Shown here: positions 52,133 to 62,890 of the stretch, in pieces
Position numbering within the stretch: the first letter of the stretch is position 1
Layout of the letters: each line of letters opens with the position of its first letter
Notes under the pieces: generated by a model
Databases searched by the model: none
The model's input: only the letters and a program-made list of their open reading frames with translations
What the model was told of the DNA's origin: nothing
Program-made: the position numbers and the translations under genes
Source of the DNA: a gamma proteobacterium symbiont of Taylorina sp.
GTDB lineage: Bacteria > Pseudomonadota > Gammaproteobacteria > GRL18
DNA length: 64,000 bases
Assembly (NCBI GenBank): GCA_025655455.1
Contig: JAHXIV010000005.1
Span: 47,558-111,557 of the forward strand
Direction of reading: 5' to 3'

Positions 52133-52363
52133 ATGATTTCAGCAAAGCTATCCAGTAAATATCAAATAGCAATTCCAAAAGCCATTAGAGAAAGTCTGGA
52201 TATCAAATCCGGGCAACAGTTCACTTTAATTACCAGAGGATCAATTATTGAAATGGTACCTATGCAATCAATTGATAATGCCAGAGGCTCTTTTTCTGAA
52301 TTTAAAACAACACAAGCAGTAAAATCAGAACAATATCGTGACAGGCAGGATAGAAATCTATGA
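52133..52363 (+). CDS. vapB: VapB-type AbrB-fold antitoxin
   Basis: The 76-residue protein has a swapped-hairpin AbrB DNA-binding domain (AKLSSKYQIAIPKAIRESLDIKSGQQFTLI) and a C-terminal toxin-binding tail (ARGSFSEFKTTQAVKSEQYRDRQ). The stop overlaps the toxin start by 4 bp (ATGA), the usual arrangement. It should neutralise the downstream PIN toxin and repress the operon. Confidence 0.88.
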   Translation: MISAKLSSKYQIAIPKAIRESLDIKSGQQFTLITRGSIIEMVPMQSIDNARGSFSEFKTTQAVKSEQYRDRQDRNL

Positions 52364-52731
52364 GCCTGGTTGATACTTGTGGATGGATTGAGTGGTTGAC
52401 CGATGGTATTCTTGCAAATAAATACAAACCTTATATGCAAGATATTGAATCCATTATTATCCCGACTTCGGTACAATTTGAATTATATAAATGGGCAAGT
52501 AGAGTTAAAAACAAACAGGAAGCCTTAAAAGTCATCGCTTTAACTGAGCAAGGAAAAGTAATACCTTTAACAACATCAATTTCCTTATTAGCTGGTGATT
52601 TGGCTTTAGAATATAAACTCACTTTTGCTGATGCTATTATTTATGCAACAGCCCAGAATGAGCAAGCTGAACTCATCACTTCGGATGATCATTTTCTTAA
52701 TTTACCTCATGTTGTTTATTTTAAGAAATAA
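52360..52731 (+). CDS. vapC: VapC-type PIN-domain toxin
   Basis: The 123-residue PIN ribonuclease has the acidic active site visible: Asp5 in MSLVDTCGWIEW, Glu in SVQFELYKWA, Asp in LTFADAIIYATA and SDDHF near the end. VapC toxins cut tRNA or rRNA. The gene overlaps vapB, and all key residues are present, so the pair looks functional. Confidence 0.9.
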   Translation: MSLVDTCGWIEWLTDGILANKYKPYMQDIESIIIPTSVQFELYKWASRVKNKQEALKVIALTEQGKVIPLTTSISLLAGDLALEYKLTFADAIIYATAQNEQAELITSDDHFLNLPHVVYFKK

Positions 52732-55218: not shown

Positions 55219-55269
55219 ATTAAATTAGTACGACCGTACTAATTTAATCTGTTGACTCTCTAATGTCAA
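55219..55269 (-). promoter_or_regulatory. promoter and 30-bp palindromic TetR operator
   Basis: ATTAAATTAGTACG-AC-CGTACTAATTTAAT (55219-55248) is a perfect palindrome with a 2-bp centre. On the minus strand TTGACA (55264-55269) and TAAATT (55241-55246) are spaced 17 bp, a near-consensus promoter whose -10 box lies inside the palindrome. A bound regulator would block RNA polymerase. The arrangement strongly suggests autorepression by the TetR protein of this operon. Confidence 0.8.
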
Positions 55270-55790
55270 TAAATTATGAATTTAATGACTGGAAAAAATT
55301 TCAATCATATCTAGCAAAAAAGATTCAAAGCCAGATAAAAGCACAATCATGGACAAGCAATATATGGTTTAATATTGTCTTATGGGCGGGTATTGGATTT
55401 ATATTAATGTTTTTATTTAAAAAAATTAGTTACTTCCATTGGCCTACAGCATTATTTTCTGGTGGTACATTGATAGTCATTTTTATTAGTTATCTTTTTG
55501 AATTAAAAAAGCTGAGAAAAGCTTTTGCGCCAAGTGTTGATGGTTCATTTCTCGGTAATCATACATTTATAATTTCAGAAAAAGGAATTGATTCAATTGG
55601 CGATGGTTATAATTGTACCCACTCGTGGAAGAAAATTAATGAAATTTCAAGAGAAAATGGATTAATAATGCTTTTTGTCGATACAACAAATGCATATATT
55701 TTTCCTGAACATAAATTAAAAAATCCAGATGACTTTTATACATATATTAAAGAATGCAACAAGGCTTCCGAGCGGATCACTGGAACTTAG
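55263..55790 (+). CDS. YcxB-like membrane protein
   Basis: The 175-residue protein has two membrane helices (about 35-55 and 60-82). A C-terminal YcxB-like domain follows (LGNHTFIISEKGIDSIGDGYNCTHSWKKINEISRENGLIMLFVDTTNAYIFPEHKL). The start overlaps the -35 box of the divergent promoter, and no clear ribosome site is seen. The function of YcxB proteins is unknown. The 110-bp stretch after it (55791-55900) contains an imperfect stem (CTGGAAAGGTGA...TTTTACCTTGTCCCAG) and two GTTATG repeats. Confidence 0.7.
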   Translation: MSINYEFNDWKKFQSYLAKKIQSQIKAQSWTSNIWFNIVLWAGIGFILMFLFKKISYFHWPTALFSGGTLIVIFISYLFELKKLRKAFAPSVDGSFLGNHTFIISEKGIDSIGDGYNCTHSWKKINEISRENGLIMLFVDTTNAYIFPEHKLKNPDDFYTYIKECNKASERITGT

Positions 55791-55900
55791 CAATTTTAAA
55801 AAAAGTTATGAGTGTGCTGGAAAGGTGATTTTTTAATGATCTTTTACCTTGTCCCAGTACCTACTCAAGGCAAGGTTATGTGTAAGAAAGGAATTTCGTA

Positions 55901-56449
55901 ATGAGTCGTATCAAGCATGTTTTATTAACAATTGCCCTGCTATTTTCTTCAACCGTAAATGCAGGCTGGGTTGATAAGCAGGGCAACAAAATCCACGATT
56001 CAAATAATATGAAATCGGTAGGAGACCTTATAGCTCAATTGGTTATTACGGACGGTGAAGCGAAAGTATTAAAAAACTGGGGTACTCCTTCAGAAAGCGT
56101 ATACTTTCCAACTGCTGATATAATCAAAAGAAATAAAATAATTACAGCATTTATTGTGTTCGGTGGTTGCGCTGTTAACTCTAAGGGTAACTGTGATCTG
56201 AGAATGCAAATTACAGTATACCAGCCTGATGGTGCTATCTATTCAAAACTGCCTATTATGGAAGTTTGGTCAGGCAAACCAGTACCTCCAAATAAAGGCC
56301 TAGGGCTAAGCGTAGAGTATATGCGTGTCATAATTGAAAATGGCGAGCAACTTGGTAGGTATAAAGTTGATACTAAAATAATCGATAACATCAGTGGCAA
56401 TAATATGATGCTTACCTCACACTTCACGGCTGTAGATGCAATTGAGTAA
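55901..56449 (+). CDS. secreted hypothetical protein
   Basis: The 182-residue protein has a signal peptide (MSRIKHVLLTIALLFSSTVNA) and a predicted all-beta body (AFIVFGGCAVNSKGNCDLRMQITVYQPDG). Two cysteines may pair. No family is recognised. An attC-like site begins 4 bp after the stop, so it may be the first visible cassette gene. Confidence 0.65.
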   Translation: MSRIKHVLLTIALLFSSTVNAGWVDKQGNKIHDSNNMKSVGDLIAQLVITDGEAKVLKNWGTPSESVYFPTADIIKRNKIITAFIVFGGCAVNSKGNCDLRMQITVYQPDGAIYSKLPIMEVWSGKPVPPNKGLGLSVEYMRVIIENGEQLGRYKVDTKIIDNISGNNMMLTSHFTAVDAIE

Positions 56450-56452
56450 AAT

Positions 56453-56503
56453 ACATAACAATATGCTCCTGAAATTGCAGCTGTTTATTATTGAACGTTA
56501 GCC
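56453..56503 (+). repeat. attC-like recombination site 1
   Basis: ACATAAC at the left and GTTAGCC at the right fit the R''/R' boxes of integron attC sites. CAATA and TATTG extend the stem, with AAC unpaired on one side, and the whole is 51 bp. It starts just after the stop of the preceding ORF. The orientation matches plus-strand cassettes. Confidence 0.6.
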
Positions 56504-56508
56504 TCGGA

Positions 56509-56556
56509 TAAATGGCAAATGGATGGTTTGGGACGACTTCAAACATTTGCCATTTA
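56509..56556. repeat. perfect 13-bp hairpin enclosing a TGGTTTGGGACGA motif
   Basis: TAAATGGCAAATG and CATTTGCCATTTA flank a 22-nt loop that contains TGGTTTGGGACGA. The same 13-mer occurs at 61902-61914, at the same 27-bp distance from the GTTAG of an attC-like site. The rest of 56557-56748 holds no gene. Confidence 0.6.
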
Positions 56557-56748
56557 AAAATTTAATTTTACCTGTGAACGGGGCTTGATGACCTTAAGCT
56601 GTTATTACGAGTTAGTGCAAGCCAATATTATAATGCCATATAGCTGCGATTTCTAAATGCTCAAAATAGGATGAAATAAGATTCCAATAAACAATAACTG
56701 ATAATAAGTTCTTCTATAAACTTGTCAGCTATTTTCTAGAGTCATTCC

Positions 56749-57276
56749 TTACTTAAAACAATCATGTTTTTCCAGGTCAATACTGGCTCTAAAGTACGAA
56801 TAAGGTTTACCTCCAATGTGAGGGTGAGGTACCCACCATAAAAGCCATTCAGAATTAGATCCAGAAAAAATAATAGGAACTTTTTTTGATGAACAATTTT
56901 CGTGACTTACTACTATCTGGCTAACATCTTTTATCCATGTCATCATCCAGGTAGATTGTTTCTCATAACAGTCATACCATAATTTTCTAGTTTCTTTATT
57001 AGATCCACTTCTTACCAAATCATGACAATTGCCAATTACAGGTTGAATTAATTCAATATAGTGATAATTTTTATTACTGATACCCTTAGCTAAGACCTTT
57101 CCAGCAACATCAAGAAATGATACGTCTATTTTTGATAAGAATTTTTCCTTAACAGATGCTTTATATTTCAAATCAATATAAATAGAGCCATGAGTGATTG
57201 AGTGCCAGTACCCATAACTAAGAACAAACCCTACAGTAACGACCAGAATTAATATTGTTTTTATAAACCGCTTCAT
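56749..57276 (-). CDS. membrane-anchored hypothetical protein
   Basis: Starting at ATG 57276 (MKRFIKTILILVV), the 175-residue protein has one N-terminal hydrophobic segment and a periplasmic body with several cysteines (GNCHDLV, WYDCYEK, HENCSSKK, KHDCFK). No family is recognised. It lies against the direction of the surrounding cassette-like genes, so it should have its own promoter. The TTG at 57288 in the track is less likely as the start. Confidence 0.6.
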   Translation of the reverse strand: MKRFIKTILILVVTVGFVLSYGYWHSITHGSIYIDLKYKASVKEKFLSKIDVSFLDVAGKVLAKGISNKNYHYIELIQPVIGNCHDLVRSGSNKETRKLWYDCYEKQSTWMMTWIKDVSQIVVSHENCSSKKVPIIFSGSNSEWLLWWVPHPHIGGKPYSYFRASIDLEKHDCFK

Positions 57277-57344
57277 GTAGATTCTCAATTATTAACATTT
57301 TATAGAGTATATATCTTTTCAACTAATTCGGATATTATTACCCC

Positions 57345-57632
57345 ATGACTAAATCAGAACTAATTGATATTCTGGCTGAAAAGCACCGTCACTTCCCTCT
57401 AGCCGACGTTAAATCAGCTATTGATGTGATACTGGAACACAAGATTCAATCCCTTGCCAGTGGTAACCGAATAGAAATCAGAGGCTTTGGCAGTTTTAAT
57501 CTTCGCTATCAGACACCACGCACAGGTAGAAATCCTAAGACTGGTGAAGAAGTCTCATTGCCTGGTAGATATAAAACTCATTTTAAGCCTGGGAAGGAAT
57601 TGAGGGATCGGGTAGATAGTTCAGTTAATTAA
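57345..57632 (+). CDS. IHF-beta-like DNA-bending protein
   Basis: The 95-residue protein is a full HU/IHF-family protein, closest to IHF beta ([10 protein letters not shown] start, [39 protein letters not shown]). The DNA-intercalating proline region ([13 protein letters not shown]) is intact. The chromosomal ihfB normally lies after rpsA; no rpsA is here, so this is an isolated or additional copy inside an accessory region. It may serve recombination or regulation of the element. Confidence 0.9.
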
Positions 57633-57654
57633 TTGTAGTTCCAACCCAATAACT

Positions 57655-57686
57655 TTTCCCGATTTGTTATATTTGATAACAGGAAA
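57655..57686 (+). terminator. stem-loop after the IHF-like gene
   Basis: TTTCC plus TGTTAT pair with ATAACA plus GGAAA across a 5-nt loop and a 5-nt bulge (57655-57686), 23 bp after the stop. No T run follows directly. Possible terminator. The remaining bases to 57821 hold no other gene. Confidence 0.4.
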
Positions 57687-57821
57687 GGAACAATATTTTA
57701 TTGAATTATAACGACTACTTAGAAACTTATATAAAGACTTATTAATATATCCATACGGAAATAAAGTTTTCCGTATAGTAACTGTTATGCTTTTAAATGA
57801 ACTGGGTATGGAGATTTATCT

Positions 57822-58364
57822 TTGAGTGAAAAATCACAACTTATACTAATGGCTGAATATAATCAGTTAATGAATCAACACATTTTTGAAGCATCTGGAA
57901 ATCTTTCAAATACTACCCTAAATGAAGATAAAGGTGCATTTTTTAAGTCAATCATGAAGACACTAAATCATATAATGATTGGAGATATTTTGTGGTTAAA
58001 AAGGTTTGCGAAGTACCCTCGTGATTATACATCATTGAAAAACATGAATGAATTCATTCAAGCTGAAACACTGGATCAAATTCTATTTGATGACATAGCT
58101 TCTTTTTATAAAGAACGGAAAAGACTAGATGGAATAATTATTGAATTTTGTAATGAATTAAAGGAAGAAGATATAAACAATACTTTAAATTATATAAACT
58201 TTAAAAAAGAGAAACATTGCAAAAGATTTGGATATCTAATTTTACATATCTTTCTCCACCAAATTCACCATCGAGGTCAAGCAACAACGCTTTTATCTCA
58301 AGAGAATATTGATTTTGGTGAAACAGATTTACCAGAAATCGTGCCTGATGAACGCCAGGCATAA
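57822..58364 (+). CDS. DinB-like four-helix protein
   Basis: The 180-residue protein resembles DinB/YfiT-type metal-binding four-helix proteins. It has histidines in KTLNHIMIGDILWLKRF and HIFLHQIHHRGQATTLLSQENIDFG, and these would form the metal site. Functions of such proteins range from thiol transferases to unknown stress roles. The start is TTG at 57822 with GGAG upstream. An attC-like site overlaps its stop codon. Confidence 0.8.
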   Translation: MSEKSQLILMAEYNQLMNQHIFEASGNLSNTTLNEDKGAFFKSIMKTLNHIMIGDILWLKRFAKYPRDYTSLKNMNEFIQAETLDQILFDDIASFYKERKRLDGIIIEFCNELKEEDINNTLNYINFKKEKHCKRFGYLILHIFLHQIHHRGQATTLLSQENIDFGETDLPEIVPDERQA

Positions 58365-58488
58365 CAAAAGCATCCAATTTAAAAAGCAGTCGATACGGGC
58401 TCTTAAAATTTGGAGTTTTGATTAAACTTAATGTCATCTTTGAAAATTCAGTGGGACGACCACTTTTAAATTGATGCAAACGTTAGAA
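58359..58488 (+). repeat. attC-like recombination site 2 (130 bp)
   Basis: GCATAAC at the left and GTTAGAA at the right bound a long imperfect hairpin. GCATCcAATTTAAAaAG pairs with CTTTTAAATTGATGC, leaving unpaired bases as known attC folds do. It begins in the stop region of the DinB-like gene. The next ORF starts 6 bp after its end, a typical cassette layout. Confidence 0.7.
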
Positions 58489-58493
58489 GAGCA

Positions 58494-59015
58494 ATGACAA
58501 AAATAATTCTAATAATTTTACTATCTCTGTTCATATTTCCTGTATATTCTCAGGATTATGTTTCTGGCGAAATAATTATTGGCTTTAATGATTCTGTAGA
58601 TGGTCTTGAAGCAATAAAAATTCTAAACGAATTAAAGCTGGAACTTAAAGAAAGGCCTTTTGCACAATACAGATACGTCGTTTATCTTAGAACACATAAT
58701 AATGAAAATTATCACCTAAAAAACAATTTAGAAAAAAGTCAATTGTTTACGCTTGTTGACATACCCTTAGACGATAAAGGCATAGACATATCTTCAAATG
58801 CTATCTTTGCTTATGCTAAGCTGACGACAACAGAAAATGACATAAAACAATTAATTACATCCTTGAAAAATATAGAAATAACGTCTGTTGAAACAACCTC
58901 TATATCCGTATTAGTTAGAGTTCCGGTTGGACATGAAAATAACCAAATCAAAAGAGCAAGCAAACATAAATATATAAATAATGCTGAATTTAATTATATA
59001 AATATAATCTTCTAA
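58494..59015 (+). CDS. secreted hypothetical protein
   Basis: The 173-residue protein has a signal peptide (MTKIILIILLSLFIFPVYS). Two similar-looking halves follow (SGEIIIGFNDSVDGLEAIKILNELKLEL and NIEITSVETTSISVLVRVPVGHENNQIKRAS). The first half is loosely like the inhibitor/propeptide folds found before subtilases. It fills one short cassette between attC-like sites 2 and 3. Function unknown. Confidence 0.65.
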   Translation: MTKIILIILLSLFIFPVYSQDYVSGEIIIGFNDSVDGLEAIKILNELKLELKERPFAQYRYVVYLRTHNNENYHLKNNLEKSQLFTLVDIPLDDKGIDISSNAIFAYAKLTTTENDIKQLITSLKNIEITSVETTSISVLVRVPVGHENNQIKRASKHKYINNAEFNYINIIF

Positions 59016-59073
59016 CAAATAAATGCTGGTGATTTAGGCGTTAAATTACTGTTTTCTAATTCAAGCGTTAGCA
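59010..59073 (+). repeat. attC-like recombination site 3
   Basis: TTCTAAC at the left and GTTAGCA at the right (preceded by AAGC) bound 64 bp directly at the stop of the preceding ORF. Internal pairing is weaker than in sites 1, 2 and 5. The next gene starts 186 bp later; the gap holds no ORF. Confidence 0.5.
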
Positions 59074-59258
59074 TTTTAATAATTCTGAATTAACACTAAG
59101 GGATGGCTCCGAACATTTTTTATTTTAAAATAAAATTTCAGATGGTAACTGTTTTTCTTTTTCCAATTATTACAATAGTCAAACATTCCTAGCATCATTT
59201 TCTGATAGTCGCTATTCATGTCATAATATGGGTAAATAAAATACATGACACAGAGTAT

Positions 59259-60479
59259 ATGATGAATAATAAAGATAAAAGTTTTTCTCCTGACAATGGA
59301 CTTGAACATGCAATAAATTTACTTCGTGAAGTATTTCTTGAACAAGATGAATTACCAGATACGTGCCCAGATATTGGAATTGGTGAATTGGATACACTCA
59401 ATCTTCTGGCTCCTCACGTACTTGGCCGTGCAGCACACCTAGGTAGACCAGACGTATTTGCACACATGGATCCACCAACACCTTGGATAACATGGGCAAC
59501 TGCCCTATGGAATGCAAGTCTAAACCAAAACTTACTACACCCAGCAACTGCACCATTTGCTATTGAAGCTGAAGAAAAAGTGATTAAGTGGCTGACCCCT
59601 TTTTTTGGTATGAATGGTGGCCATATGTGTTCTGGATCAACAGTTGCTAATCTGACAGCACTATGGGCTGCCAGAGATACAAAAGGAATCAGGAGAGTCA
59701 TTGCATCAGAATCAGCACATTTAAGTATAAAAAAATCAGCCAATATCTTGGATTTATCCTATGAAGAAATTGCAACCAATACTCATGGTCAACTTGACTC
59801 TGAACAACTTGATGATATTTCAGATGCATGTTTAGTTTTAACTGCTGGAACAACAGCAACAGGGGAAATAGATCCCTTAGAGTTGGCAGGACAAGCAAAA
59901 TGGACTCATGTTGATGCAGCATGGACTGGCCCTTTACGCTTGAGTCCAACTCATGCACATTTGCTGAACGATATAAATAAAGCTGATTCTGTTTCTATAT
60001 CTGCACATAAATGGTTTTTTCAACCAAAGGATTCAGCTTTAATTATGTTTCAGGATCCAGAACTTGCAAACTCAGCAATAAGTTTTGGAGGTGGATATTT
60101 AGCTACCCCAAATATTGGGGTTCAAGGTTCTCGTGGAGCTGCAGCCATACCATTACTGGCAACTTTGATTGCATGGGGAAAAAATGGCATTGTTGAGCAT
60201 ATTGATAAGAGTATGTTAATGGCTAATAAATTAGCTTCAGAGTTGGCTAAGGAAGATAGCATAAGACTCTGGGCAAAGCCAAAAACAGGTATCACTGTTT
60301 TTCGTCCACTTGCTTGCAGCACGGAAGATTTTTACCAACGTTTACCAGAGGGAATGCTTTCTACTTGTATCCTTCAAAATAAGACTTGGCTTCGATCAGT
60401 TGCTGCCAATCCATTAGCTGATATCGATACAATTATTTCTACTATTTATAATGTCATTCATGGCAATAACACAGGATAA
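59259..60479 (+). CDS. PLP-dependent group II amino-acid decarboxylase-like protein
   Basis: The 406-residue protein is a group II (aspartate/tyrosine/glutamate-type) PLP decarboxylase. Lys251 in SISAHKWFFQP should hold PLP, His154 (SAHLSIKKSA) should stack on the ring and Asp219 (HVDAAW) should bind the pyridine nitrogen. The N-terminal substrate region contains PDVFAHMDPPTPWITW. Substrate cannot be told by eye. It overlaps the track ORF of the VOC gene and is probably co-transcribed with it. Confidence 0.83.
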   Translation: MMNNKDKSFSPDNGLEHAINLLREVFLEQDELPDTCPDIGIGELDTLNLLAPHVLGRAAHLGRPDVFAHMDPPTPWITWATALWNASLNQNLLHPATAPFAIEAEEKVIKWLTPFFGMNGGHMCSGSTVANLTALWAARDTKGIRRVIASESAHLSIKKSANILDLSYEEIATNTHGQLDSEQLDDISDACLVLTAGTTATGEIDPLELAGQAKWTHVDAAWTGPLRLSPTHAHLLNDINKADSVSISAHKWFFQPKDSALIMFQDPELANSAISFGGGYLATPNIGVQGSRGAAAIPLLATLIAWGKNGIVEHIDKSMLMANKLASELAKEDSIRLWAKPKTGITVFRPLACSTEDFYQRLPEGMLSTCILQNKTWLRSVAANPLADIDTIISTIYNVIHGNNTG

Positions 60480-60501
60480 TAGAGTTATAAAGGATACAAA
60501 T

Positions 60502-60909
60502 ATGAAACCAAGAATTAGTATGATTACTTTAGGTGTGGAAAACTTAGAAAAGTCGGTTAAATTTTATAAAAAGGGACTGGGATTTCCAAAAATGGACTCT
60601 CCACCTGAAGTTGCTTTCTTTACTCTTAATGGTAGTTGGCTTGGTTTATATAATCGAGAAGCATTAGCAGAAGATGCTTATGTTTCCTCTGAGGGGAATG
60701 GGTTTGAAGGCATAACTCTTTCTCATAATGTATCAACAGAAGATGAAGTTGATAAAATAATGGAGCAAGCCTCATCAATCGGTGCCATTATTTCAAAAAT
60801 AGCACAAAAAATATCATGGGGTGGTTATTCGGGGTATTTTAAAGATCCCGATGGTCATTTATGGGAGGTGGCCTATAACCCTTTCTTTTGGGTTGGGCCA
60901 GAAGATTGA
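60502..60909 (+). CDS. VOC-family (glyoxalase/bleomycin-resistance-like) protein
   Basis: From the ATG at 60502 (AAGGAT upstream) the 135-residue protein has the two-module VOC fold (MITLGVENLEKSVKFYKKGLGFPKM and YSGYFKDPDGHLWEVAYNPFFW). Metal-ligand candidates are present. The WEVAYNPFFWVGPED ending is common in the uncharacterised VOC group. The track start at 60451 overlaps the decarboxylase and is rejected. Confidence 0.87.
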   Translation: MKPRISMITLGVENLEKSVKFYKKGLGFPKMDSPPEVAFFTLNGSWLGLYNREALAEDAYVSSEGNGFEGITLSHNVSTEDEVDKIMEQASSIGAIISKIAQKISWGGYSGYFKDPDGHLWEVAYNPFFWVGPED

Positions 60910-60945
60910 TCTAAATTATAATTATAACAAATACAAAGAGGTACA

Positions 60946-61341
60946 ATGAATTCTAAATTAACCAAATATGCCTTTTTATCTGGAGTTGCATATTTTTTCT
61001 GTATGGCGATAGCTCATTATTTCAGCATTAAAGTACCAGTGCTATTCGTGTATTACGATACGCCATTTTATGCATATCAGGACAAAATAATTTCTTTCGC
61101 TGTGTGTGCGTATATAGCTCTTTTTTATTCAGCGTCTCAACATCGTTCAGTAGCTTTAAATGCAATCATTGTTCTTGCTATAACTGTACTCGGTTTAAGC
61201 TCGGTAAATATGTCAAATACACTTACTATGGTGCTGCGAGAAGGACAATCAACTACGCCATATTGGCTGCAAACAGGCGCTATTTTTTCTTATCTTCTGG
61301 TATTAGTAGTTCTTTACATTAAAGATGGCAAAAATTCATAA
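60946..61341 (+). CDS. four-helix membrane protein, unknown
   Basis: The 131-residue protein has four hydrophobic segments (about 8-26, 45-65, 70-90 and 105-125). No family is recognised with confidence. AGAGG precedes the ATG. An attC-like site overlaps the stop codon, so it would be the last gene of a three-gene cassette or fused cassettes. Confidence 0.65.
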   Translation: MNSKLTKYAFLSGVAYFFCMAIAHYFSIKVPVLFVYYDTPFYAYQDKIISFAVCAYIALFYSASQHRSVALNAIIVLAITVLGLSSVNMSNTLTMVLREGQSTTPYWLQTGAIFSYLLVLVVLYIKDGKNS

Positions 61342-61406
61342 CAGACGCTTGTTCAGACACAAGCAACTCTGTGCTTTTCTCATGCTACACAGCATGGTCG
61401 TTATAT
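61336..61406 (+). repeat. attC-like recombination site 4
   Basis: TCATAAC at the left and GTTATAT at the right bound 71 bp. ATAACaGACgC pairs with the complement in GCATGgTCGTTAT with mismatches. It begins in the stop codon of the membrane-protein gene. The match is moderate. Confidence 0.5.
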
Positions 61407-61427
61407 TTTACAAATAAATAAAACTTT

Positions 61428-61820
61428 ATGAATATACTTTTAGTTGAAAAAAACAAAATGACTCACCCTTTATATTTATTTTTTGACGGCATATCAGAAG
61501 GGCTTCGTACTAAGATATATAATAAGTTTCAATCTTATGTGCAACATGGAAATGTTTATCATTGCAAACATCTTAAAACTTTAAATTCAAAAATTTGGAA
61601 ATATAAAGGTACTATTTATAAGCTCAGAATTGACAATGGTAAAGAATCATCAAGGGTGCTTTTTTCTAAATCAAAAGATGGTAATTTAAAAATCATTCAC
61701 GCATTTTTGAAATCTACAAGAAAAACACCAGCGAAAGAAGCCAAACAAGCAATTGCAATTTATCAAATGCTAGAATGCCTTGAAACAGTCATATGGGATA
61801 GTCAATCAATGCATTGCTAA
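61428..61820 (+). CDS. RelE/HigB-like toxin-fold protein
   Basis: The 130-residue protein resembles the Gp49/HigB branch of RelE-type toxins (IWKYKGTIYKLRIDNGKESSRVLFSKSKDGNLKIIHAFLKSTRKTPAKEAKQAIAIYQMLE). The FLKSTRKTPAKEAKQA ending is characteristic. No antitoxin gene follows; an attC-like site comes next. Toxin-antitoxin genes are frequent cassette cargo. An internal ATG at 61458 (MTHPLY) is also possible as start. Confidence 0.72.
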   Translation: MNILLVEKNKMTHPLYLFFDGISEGLRTKIYNKFQSYVQHGNVYHCKHLKTLNSKIWKYKGTIYKLRIDNGKESSRVLFSKSKDGNLKIIHAFLKSTRKTPAKEAKQAIAIYQMLECLETVIWDSQSMHC

Positions 61821-61831
61821 ATGAAAAATAT

Positions 61832-61881
61832 TGCTAACAAGGTGTTCCTGAATAGCGGCTTTTTTCTGTTGGACGTTAGTA
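61832..61881 (+). repeat. attC-like recombination site 5
   Basis: TGCTAAC at the left and TTGGACGTTAGTA at the right bound 50 bp. TTGGACGTTAG is very close to the classical L'/R' end of attC sites. It lies 12 bp after the RelE-like stop. The 120 bp up to the integrase remnant contain TGGTTTGGGACGA and no gene. Confidence 0.65.
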
Positions 61882-62001
61882 TCTGAAACATATTGACTGA
61901 CTGGTTTGGGACGAAACATGAATAAGTCCTATTGGTTTAATAAAGCTATTAGCATATCAAATTTTCCATAGGAATTTTACCACTCCATCTAATACTACTG
62001 T

Positions 62002-62633
62002 TCATAAATCATTTTTAATATCTTTCCAACATAGAAATGCAGCAAATGCCGTAGTTATTAACAAAATTATAAATATTATCCCTGTAGATGAACGGGAAAG
62101 TACACCTCCTATTGCTCCCATGAACCCAAATATAATACTCAATATCATAAATTGTTTCATTAGATTTCTCAATTCTAAAGCAACAGAATCACTTTCCTTG
62201 AGTTTCTTTATTTCAATTAGCTGTAAAATATCTACAGTTGTCACTTTATCAAGTTGTTTTTCACCAAATGCAGGATATATATCACGTAACAAGTAACGAT
62301 GAATACCTTCAGGATTTTTACGATCCTTAATAACAACTTTATTATAATATTTTTCACCAAATTCCTTGATGGTGAAAGAACGTTCCAATTTTAGAGAAAA
62401 TCCATTATCAACTAATATTTCAGACTCCCCTCTTTTTATACAGGCTTCTGATAACGATAGTGATGGAAATTTACCAAGAGTAATAATTTTTCTTTTACCA
62501 TGCTGTGTATAGCGGAAAAGCCATTTTTTTGTCCAGAAGGCATCACTTCAAGCATTAAACCTTGACCGTCAGTAACACGATATCTGCTTTCTTTTGATTT
62601 TAGTGCTTTAATTCCGGTTGATGTTAGGGGCAT
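62002..62633 (-). pseudogene. P4-type tyrosine integrase remnant with foreign hydrophobic tail
   Basis: From the ATG at 62633 (GGAGA upstream) the protein reads MPLTSTGIKALKSKESRYRVTDGQGLMLEVMPSGQK. After a frameshift at an A run near 62525 it continues KWLFRYTQHGKRKIITLGKFPSLSLSEA. This is the DUF4102 arm domain. The core-binding domain follows (FTIKEFGEKYYNKVVIKDRK...GEKQLDKVTTVDILQL). The catalytic domain is absent; the frame instead ends in two membrane-like helices (FMILSIIFGFMGAIGGVL...IIFIILLITTAFAAFLCW). Inactive as a recombinase. Confidence 0.8.
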
Positions 62634-62890
62634 ACAATCTCCAATTAACATATAATTTGTACACAGTTAATTATAAATGACTTTTTTTACCAAAATTTGT
62701 ACCAATATTCTATGGATTCAATTGCACTTTTTTGGATTTTATAAGACAGGAAAACTTTATTTTATGCGTGTTTTAGAGGTATTTTTGACGCTTTAAGACT
62801 ATACTGGATAGTCATTTATTTTCCAATACAAAAGCTGGTAACTTTTATTAAGCAGTTGATAATTATAAAAATAAAATATATTATTTTTCT

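Follow-up and report, generated by a model that had tools for sequence, protein, structure and literature searches.

A probable small, partly decayed integron cassette cluster without its own integrase in the draft genome of a gammaproteobacterial symbiont

The window analysed here, a 64-kb stretch of DNA (G000:C10:47558-111557) from a 4.5-Mb draft assembly in 104 contigs, very probably contains, towards its right-hand end, a small cluster of integron cassettes that is partly decayed and lacks an integrase of its own (a CALIN). Such clusters are already known, and this one is best read as a further case, in a genus where chromosomal integrons are plentiful. The real cluster begins at 55754 with an attC (site A) that had been missed in a preliminary description of the sequence, includes a second attC (site B), and has its last well-supported site, apparently truncated (site C), at 59010. 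The preliminary description had proposed five attC in a row, numbered here 1 to 5 (at 56453, 58359, 59010, 61336 and 61832). The letters it read are present, namely TAAC and GTT boxes near plus-strand stop codons, all in one orientation; but only one of the five (site 2, our site B) is a full attC, site 3 contains a short form, and the others are not attC. Proximity to a stop codon is weak evidence for attC, since TAAC may supply the stop through its own TAA. The proposed CALIN without integrase stands in a weak sense, with two full attC, one truncated attC and no intI in the window, but with four of the five original sites misread. The features of the region are as follows.

55263–55790, plus strand: 175-aa ORF, weakly YcxB-like, a cassette gene with its stop in the left arm of attC A
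55754–55881, plus strand: attC site A, VCR-like, about 128 nt; R'' ATGCAAC, R' GTTATGT
55901–56449, plus strand: ORF for a 182-aa secreted protein of a family without assignment
56456–56542, plus strand: copy of the dispersed repeat (site 1); repeat-model match, no attC fold
56749–57288, minus strand: 179-aa secreted protein with a homologue in G001:C171
57345–57632, plus strand: extra IHF-beta-like gene, over the NCBIfam cut-off
57648–57790, plus strand: second dispersed element, a varied hairpin ending in TAACTGTTA
57822–58364, plus strand: DinB-family protein, its TAA in GCATAAC of site B
58359–58488, plus strand: attC site B (site 2); R'' GCATAAC, spacer AAAA, L'' GCATCcAATTTAAAA, L' TTTTAAATTGATGC, spacer AAAC, R' GTTAGAA
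58494–59015, plus strand: 173-aa single-gene cassette with a signal peptide-like start, fervidolysin N-prodomain-like, its TAA in the next left box
59010–59046, plus strand: attC-like site C, 37 nt; R'' TTCTAAC, short L stem, R' GTTAAAT
59042–59112, plus strand: copy of the dispersed genus repeat, an independent match (E 7.2e-8) that contains the right box proposed for site 3
59259–60479, plus strand: PLP-dependent decarboxylase family gene (family match)
60451–60909, plus strand: VOC protein (glyoxalase/fosfomycin-resistance fold), far under all Fos cut-offs
60946–61341, plus strand: ORF for a small membrane protein
61336–61406, plus strand: site 4, with two internal hairpins
61428–61820, plus strand: RelE/HigB-like gene (Gp49, PF05973; family match)
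61832–61923, plus strand: TAACAAGG stub, then a copy of the dispersed repeat (site 5; repeat-model match)

The clearest attC is site B, which obtained the top score of the 64 kb, 20.6, in a box-and-arm scan for which 0.33 matches scoring 20 or more are expected per dinucleotide shuffle. Its boxes contain AAC and GTT, with C preceding GTT as in most attC, and its fold comprises the R and L stems, complementary L'' and L', an extrahelical C in the top-strand L'' and two unpaired central spacers of 4 nt each. At least six close full copies were identified in the same genome, on C20, C78, C19 (three) and C11, together with a half copy on C17. The copies are 81–92% identical, and the similarity ends within a few bases of both boxes, beyond which the flanks are unrelated, as is characteristic of a recombination site shared among different cassettes. 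Site B, originally described as an attC with unpaired bases in its stem, is thus a genuine attC and is predicted from its sequence to recombine. Its left box includes the DinB stop codon, and the following gene begins 12 nt downstream of the first base of R'.

Site A belongs to the attC family seen most often in the genus, which reads GATCACTGGGACTTAGCGATTTT.. CCTTGTCCCAG. It is homologous along its length to attC in G011, G005 and G004 and on contigs C19, C72 and C82 of its own genome (68–82% identity, nhmmer to 1e-19), with unrelated flanks. These homologues clearly show L''/L' pairing, scoring 20–25 compared with 13.3 for the window copy, and the minimum-energy fold of site A is not attC-like (z −0.33). 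Homology identifies site A as a full attC, with recombination predicted, that may be ageing, as its own fold is weaker than those of its relatives. Full-length searches with 42 genus attC sequences, some of them one site held in two loci, matched the 64 kb at 55757–55880 and 58360–58487 only.

The reference set, 27 attC from integrase-linked loci of many phyla with a minimum length of 57 nt, displays the known anatomy of R'' AAC, a 4–5-nt spacer, L'' with an extrahelical base, L', a spacer and R' GTT, with boxes and arms as in the literature (PMC2727003). The attC collected in the genus fall into families of 58, 72–89 and 117–133 nt, within overall lengths of 47–133 nt. In their trimmed alignment, pairing of the R and L stems is strongly backed by compensatory changes, nearly all of them in the L arms, with both-side changes in 91 cells versus 43.5 in shuffles and at most 41 in slid alignments. 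The three outer R pairs are poorly conserved, as expected because the end of R' in arrays derives from the next cassette; strict seven-pair R-box scans missed or under-rated site 2 because the last six R' bases in arrays belong to that cassette. A covariance model of 25 reference attC from other phyla (R1) gave only weak matches in the window, and the genus attC model (R3) had its best match there at site C (24.9 bits, E 0.0053). Neither model scored site A or site B, since both models are trimmed to short attC and both sites are long-topped; there is therefore no covariance-model E-value for these two sites, and their support is homology and fold. The covariance-model check suggested earlier accordingly returned a match at 59010–59046 and none at sites 1, 4 and 5, leaving site 2 unscored by the trimmed models. 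Rfam yielded no match above the gathering score, and RF02816, considered as an attC family, proved to be wrong.

By covariance model and fold, site C has R and L stems with spacers, within 37 nt, less than the 57-nt minimum of the reference set. It resembles the 58-nt attC of C78 minus its centre and looks like a truncated attC that appears internally deleted; it has lost most of its hairpin and is probably inactive. This short hairpin is what survives of site 3, whose proposed right box at 59067 is part of a dispersed repeat. The repeat is about 70–90 bp long, with the consensus GAATnGCTGCTTTTT..AACGTTAG..GGGACGA, and its central CGTTAG imitates an attC right box; the consensus has neither a left AAC box nor a conserved fold. 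A sequence-only model built on five copies, used at E up to 0.1, detected about 100 instances spread over 13 of the 16 genus genomes. Among 75 genomes drawn from the class, only one outside the genus produced a match, and that a marginal one. In G013, whose genome is mostly contained in one 4.2-Mb contig, copies lie at 0.88, 2.14 and 3.41 Mb, far from the integrases at 1.00 and 1.70 Mb. Elsewhere, the repeat directly follows the stop of the C24 integrase (L014 12028-12095) and of the C42 fragment (L015 366-433).

Sites 1 and 5 turned out to be unfolded sequences (z +0.49 and −0.13) whose GTTAG is the centre of this repeat. They are similar to each other across the supposed crossover, through GTTAG and 30 nt beyond, to GGGACGA, and they show no L''/L' pairing, no match along the 42 genus attC queries and no covariance-model match; their reading as ends of a 129-nt attC was ruled out by the unpaired arms. 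The TAACAAGG stub at site 5 is possibly an attC deletion scar. Lying between genes and unrelated to attC, the repeat creates false right boxes.

The typical cassette cargo noted in the preliminary description, comprising RelE-like, VOC, DinB and secreted genes, is indeed present, but no recognisable attC separates the downstream PLP decarboxylase, VOC, membrane protein and RelE-like genes. Site 4 had been proposed among them. Its internal hairpins give a z of −3.62; L-box pairing and a covariance-model match are absent, and the right box GTTATA is replaced by ATCATA (CATCATA) in a 91%-identical homologue in G001, which removes it from the list of attC. The membrane protein and RelE-like genes are adjacent both in the window and in G001 with no attC between them, so not all genes here move singly. 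The RelE-like gene has different surroundings in five relatives; in G001:C171 the homologue of the gene at 56749–57288 comes directly after it, in the other orientation, and relatives also differ in the order of the RelE-like and secreted genes. These sequence comparisons support shuffling and do not give its timing. Strain-level cassette gain or loss was not visible, and we counted this against the CALIN explanation. The interval 55882–58358 is plausibly a set of fused cassettes with a decayed site. The hairpin at 57648–57790 was rejected as the attC of the IHF-beta-like gene, being present in G011 and G012 without that gene; this second dispersed element also occurs in G012:C20, G011:C520 and on C11 of the same genome, with arms changed yet paired and flanks that diverge after TAACTGTTA. 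IHF is a DNA-bending protein employed by recombinases, and relatives or pieces of the IHF-beta-like gene, 80–90% identical, are found elsewhere in the genome on C71, C13, C21, C64 and C14. No antitoxin gene was seen beside the RelE/HigB-like gene here or in G001, and the sole PADLOC result, a weak match to NsnC, fell on this gene. A pair encoding a MazE-like antitoxin and a PIN-domain toxin is located at 52133–52731, and remains of a phage-type integrase lie in two pieces at 62002–62651, with related sequence on C17 and in G007 and G001.

A tblastn search found no integron integrase in the 64-kb window, the right side of which is covered only to the contig end at 64000, 5 kb past the last attC-like site; the top match had an E-value of 0.004 and consisted of short stretches of 25–30% identity at 13 kb and 37 kb. 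The 55 kb of contiguous chromosome to the left of the first cassette likewise contain no intI. Elsewhere in the genome, where a search had been recommended, a complete intI is present on C62 with its own cassettes, and a second, different one on C24 is interrupted by the contig end. At 421 bits the C62 IntI exceeds the TIGR02249 cut-off (265), and in alignment it retains the integron-specific insert and the tyrosine recombinase residues R, H-R, H and Y; upstream of its gene, on the opposite strand, are cassettes and typical 88-nt attC. Integron integrase pieces occur at the ends of C24, C42 and C67, and C24-type fragments on C42, C67 and C7. An integrase above the cut-off was found in 12 of the first 30 genomes searched, from the same genus and beyond, and the genus appears integron-rich. 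After the attC right box, C19 (L051, ~2836) and C78 (L055, ~4220) share GTTATCGCGCCGAGCAAAGC..GGTGTATCTTGCAGGGTGCAAGTCCC, which in sequence looks like the start of a group IIC-attC intron, with reverse-transcriptase-like sequence further along C19. In the mechanism that we propose, single-stranded attC bottom strands would fold into hairpins that the integron integrase would cut and join, inserting or excising cassettes; because the 55 kb leading up to the first cassette contain no intI, the integrase would need to act in trans and would most likely be the intact C62 IntI.

The spacing criterion for attC in a CALIN is about 4 kb, and sites A and B are 2.5 kb apart, both on the plus strand. Two such sites reach the number from which IntegronFinder 2 reports a cluster (at least two attC; PMC9024848). 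It is unlikely that sites 1, 4 and 5 are decayed attC that have lost their hairpins, giving five in a row as first proposed. Palindromes are deletion-prone, TAAC is still present where a gene ends at sites 1 and 5, and G001 and G015 retain TAACAAGGCGTT downstream of the RelE-like gene, beyond which the sequences diverge; however, there is no L-box pairing, fold or length-wise similarity to the 42 genus attC queries, and the GTTAG taken as right box sits in the middle of a dispersed repeat whose similarity extends to both sides. We consider it very improbable that the cluster is the end of a complete integron split by assembly, for the integrase side in this orientation is the left, with its 55 kb free of intI, even though the contig stops 5 kb past the last attC-like site, integrase pieces lie at the ends of C24, C42 and C67, and CALIN are over-called in draft genomes (PMC9024848). 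Likewise very improbable is a genomic island carried in by a phage-type integrase rather than by cassette capture: the broken gene at 62002–62651 has Arm-DNA-bind_3 and Phage_int_M pieces, but both Pfam matches are under the curated cut-off, the gene is fragmented, flanking att repeats were not identified, and sites A and B would be left unaccounted for.

Alongside the small CALIN, we observed, post hoc and after inspecting the data, that at about nine loci in the genus a repeat copy begins precisely where the G/TT crossover of an attC, or that of a TAAC..GTT stub, is located. These are window sites 3, 5 and possibly 1 (GCT for GTT), C29, C11, G015:C142, G007:C57, G004:C51 (ATT for GTT) and G011:C195, of which the C29 junction has a perfect 47-nt attC and the G011:C195 junction has an orthologue in G015:C233; junction coordinates include L184 487-535 and L245 7283-7431. 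An automatic test scored 11 or more for 5 of 20 repeat copies with a correctly placed GTT versus 4% of 455 control GTTs, and two of these five junctions appeared spurious on reading. That the repeat is functionally tied to cassettes, either as an attG-like landing pad for the integrase or as a small mobile sequence that enters attC, seems quite unlikely. Insertion into the repeat is unsupported, because a left-half profile search found no left halves of split repeats near or upstream of the attC-abutting copies. The junctions nevertheless offer a concrete test case for cassette spread outside arrays. They recall attG and other secondary integron sites, at which cassettes occur at chromosomal positions away from attI (Loot et al. 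2024, as cited in PMC12901181), in that several genus repeats start at an attC crossover, and differ in that no left half of a split repeat lies upstream of the cassettes here.

A genus-specific intergenic repeat can thus mimic attC right boxes by eye, and cassette counts in AT-rich genomes therefore need fold and family checks. The region agrees with CALIN as defined in IntegronFinder (PMC9024848) in having at least two attC in the same orientation, cassette-like genes between them and no adjoining integrase. It differs in having only two full sites and one truncated site, interleaved with a repeat that mimics the right box. In layout only, the long sites resemble the VCR-type attC of the Vibrio superintegron, with about 128–130 nt, a long branched top and arms with unpaired spacers and extrahelical bases. 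Unlike VCR, the sites described here are AT-rich, and the genus also has 58-nt and 88-nt attC families.
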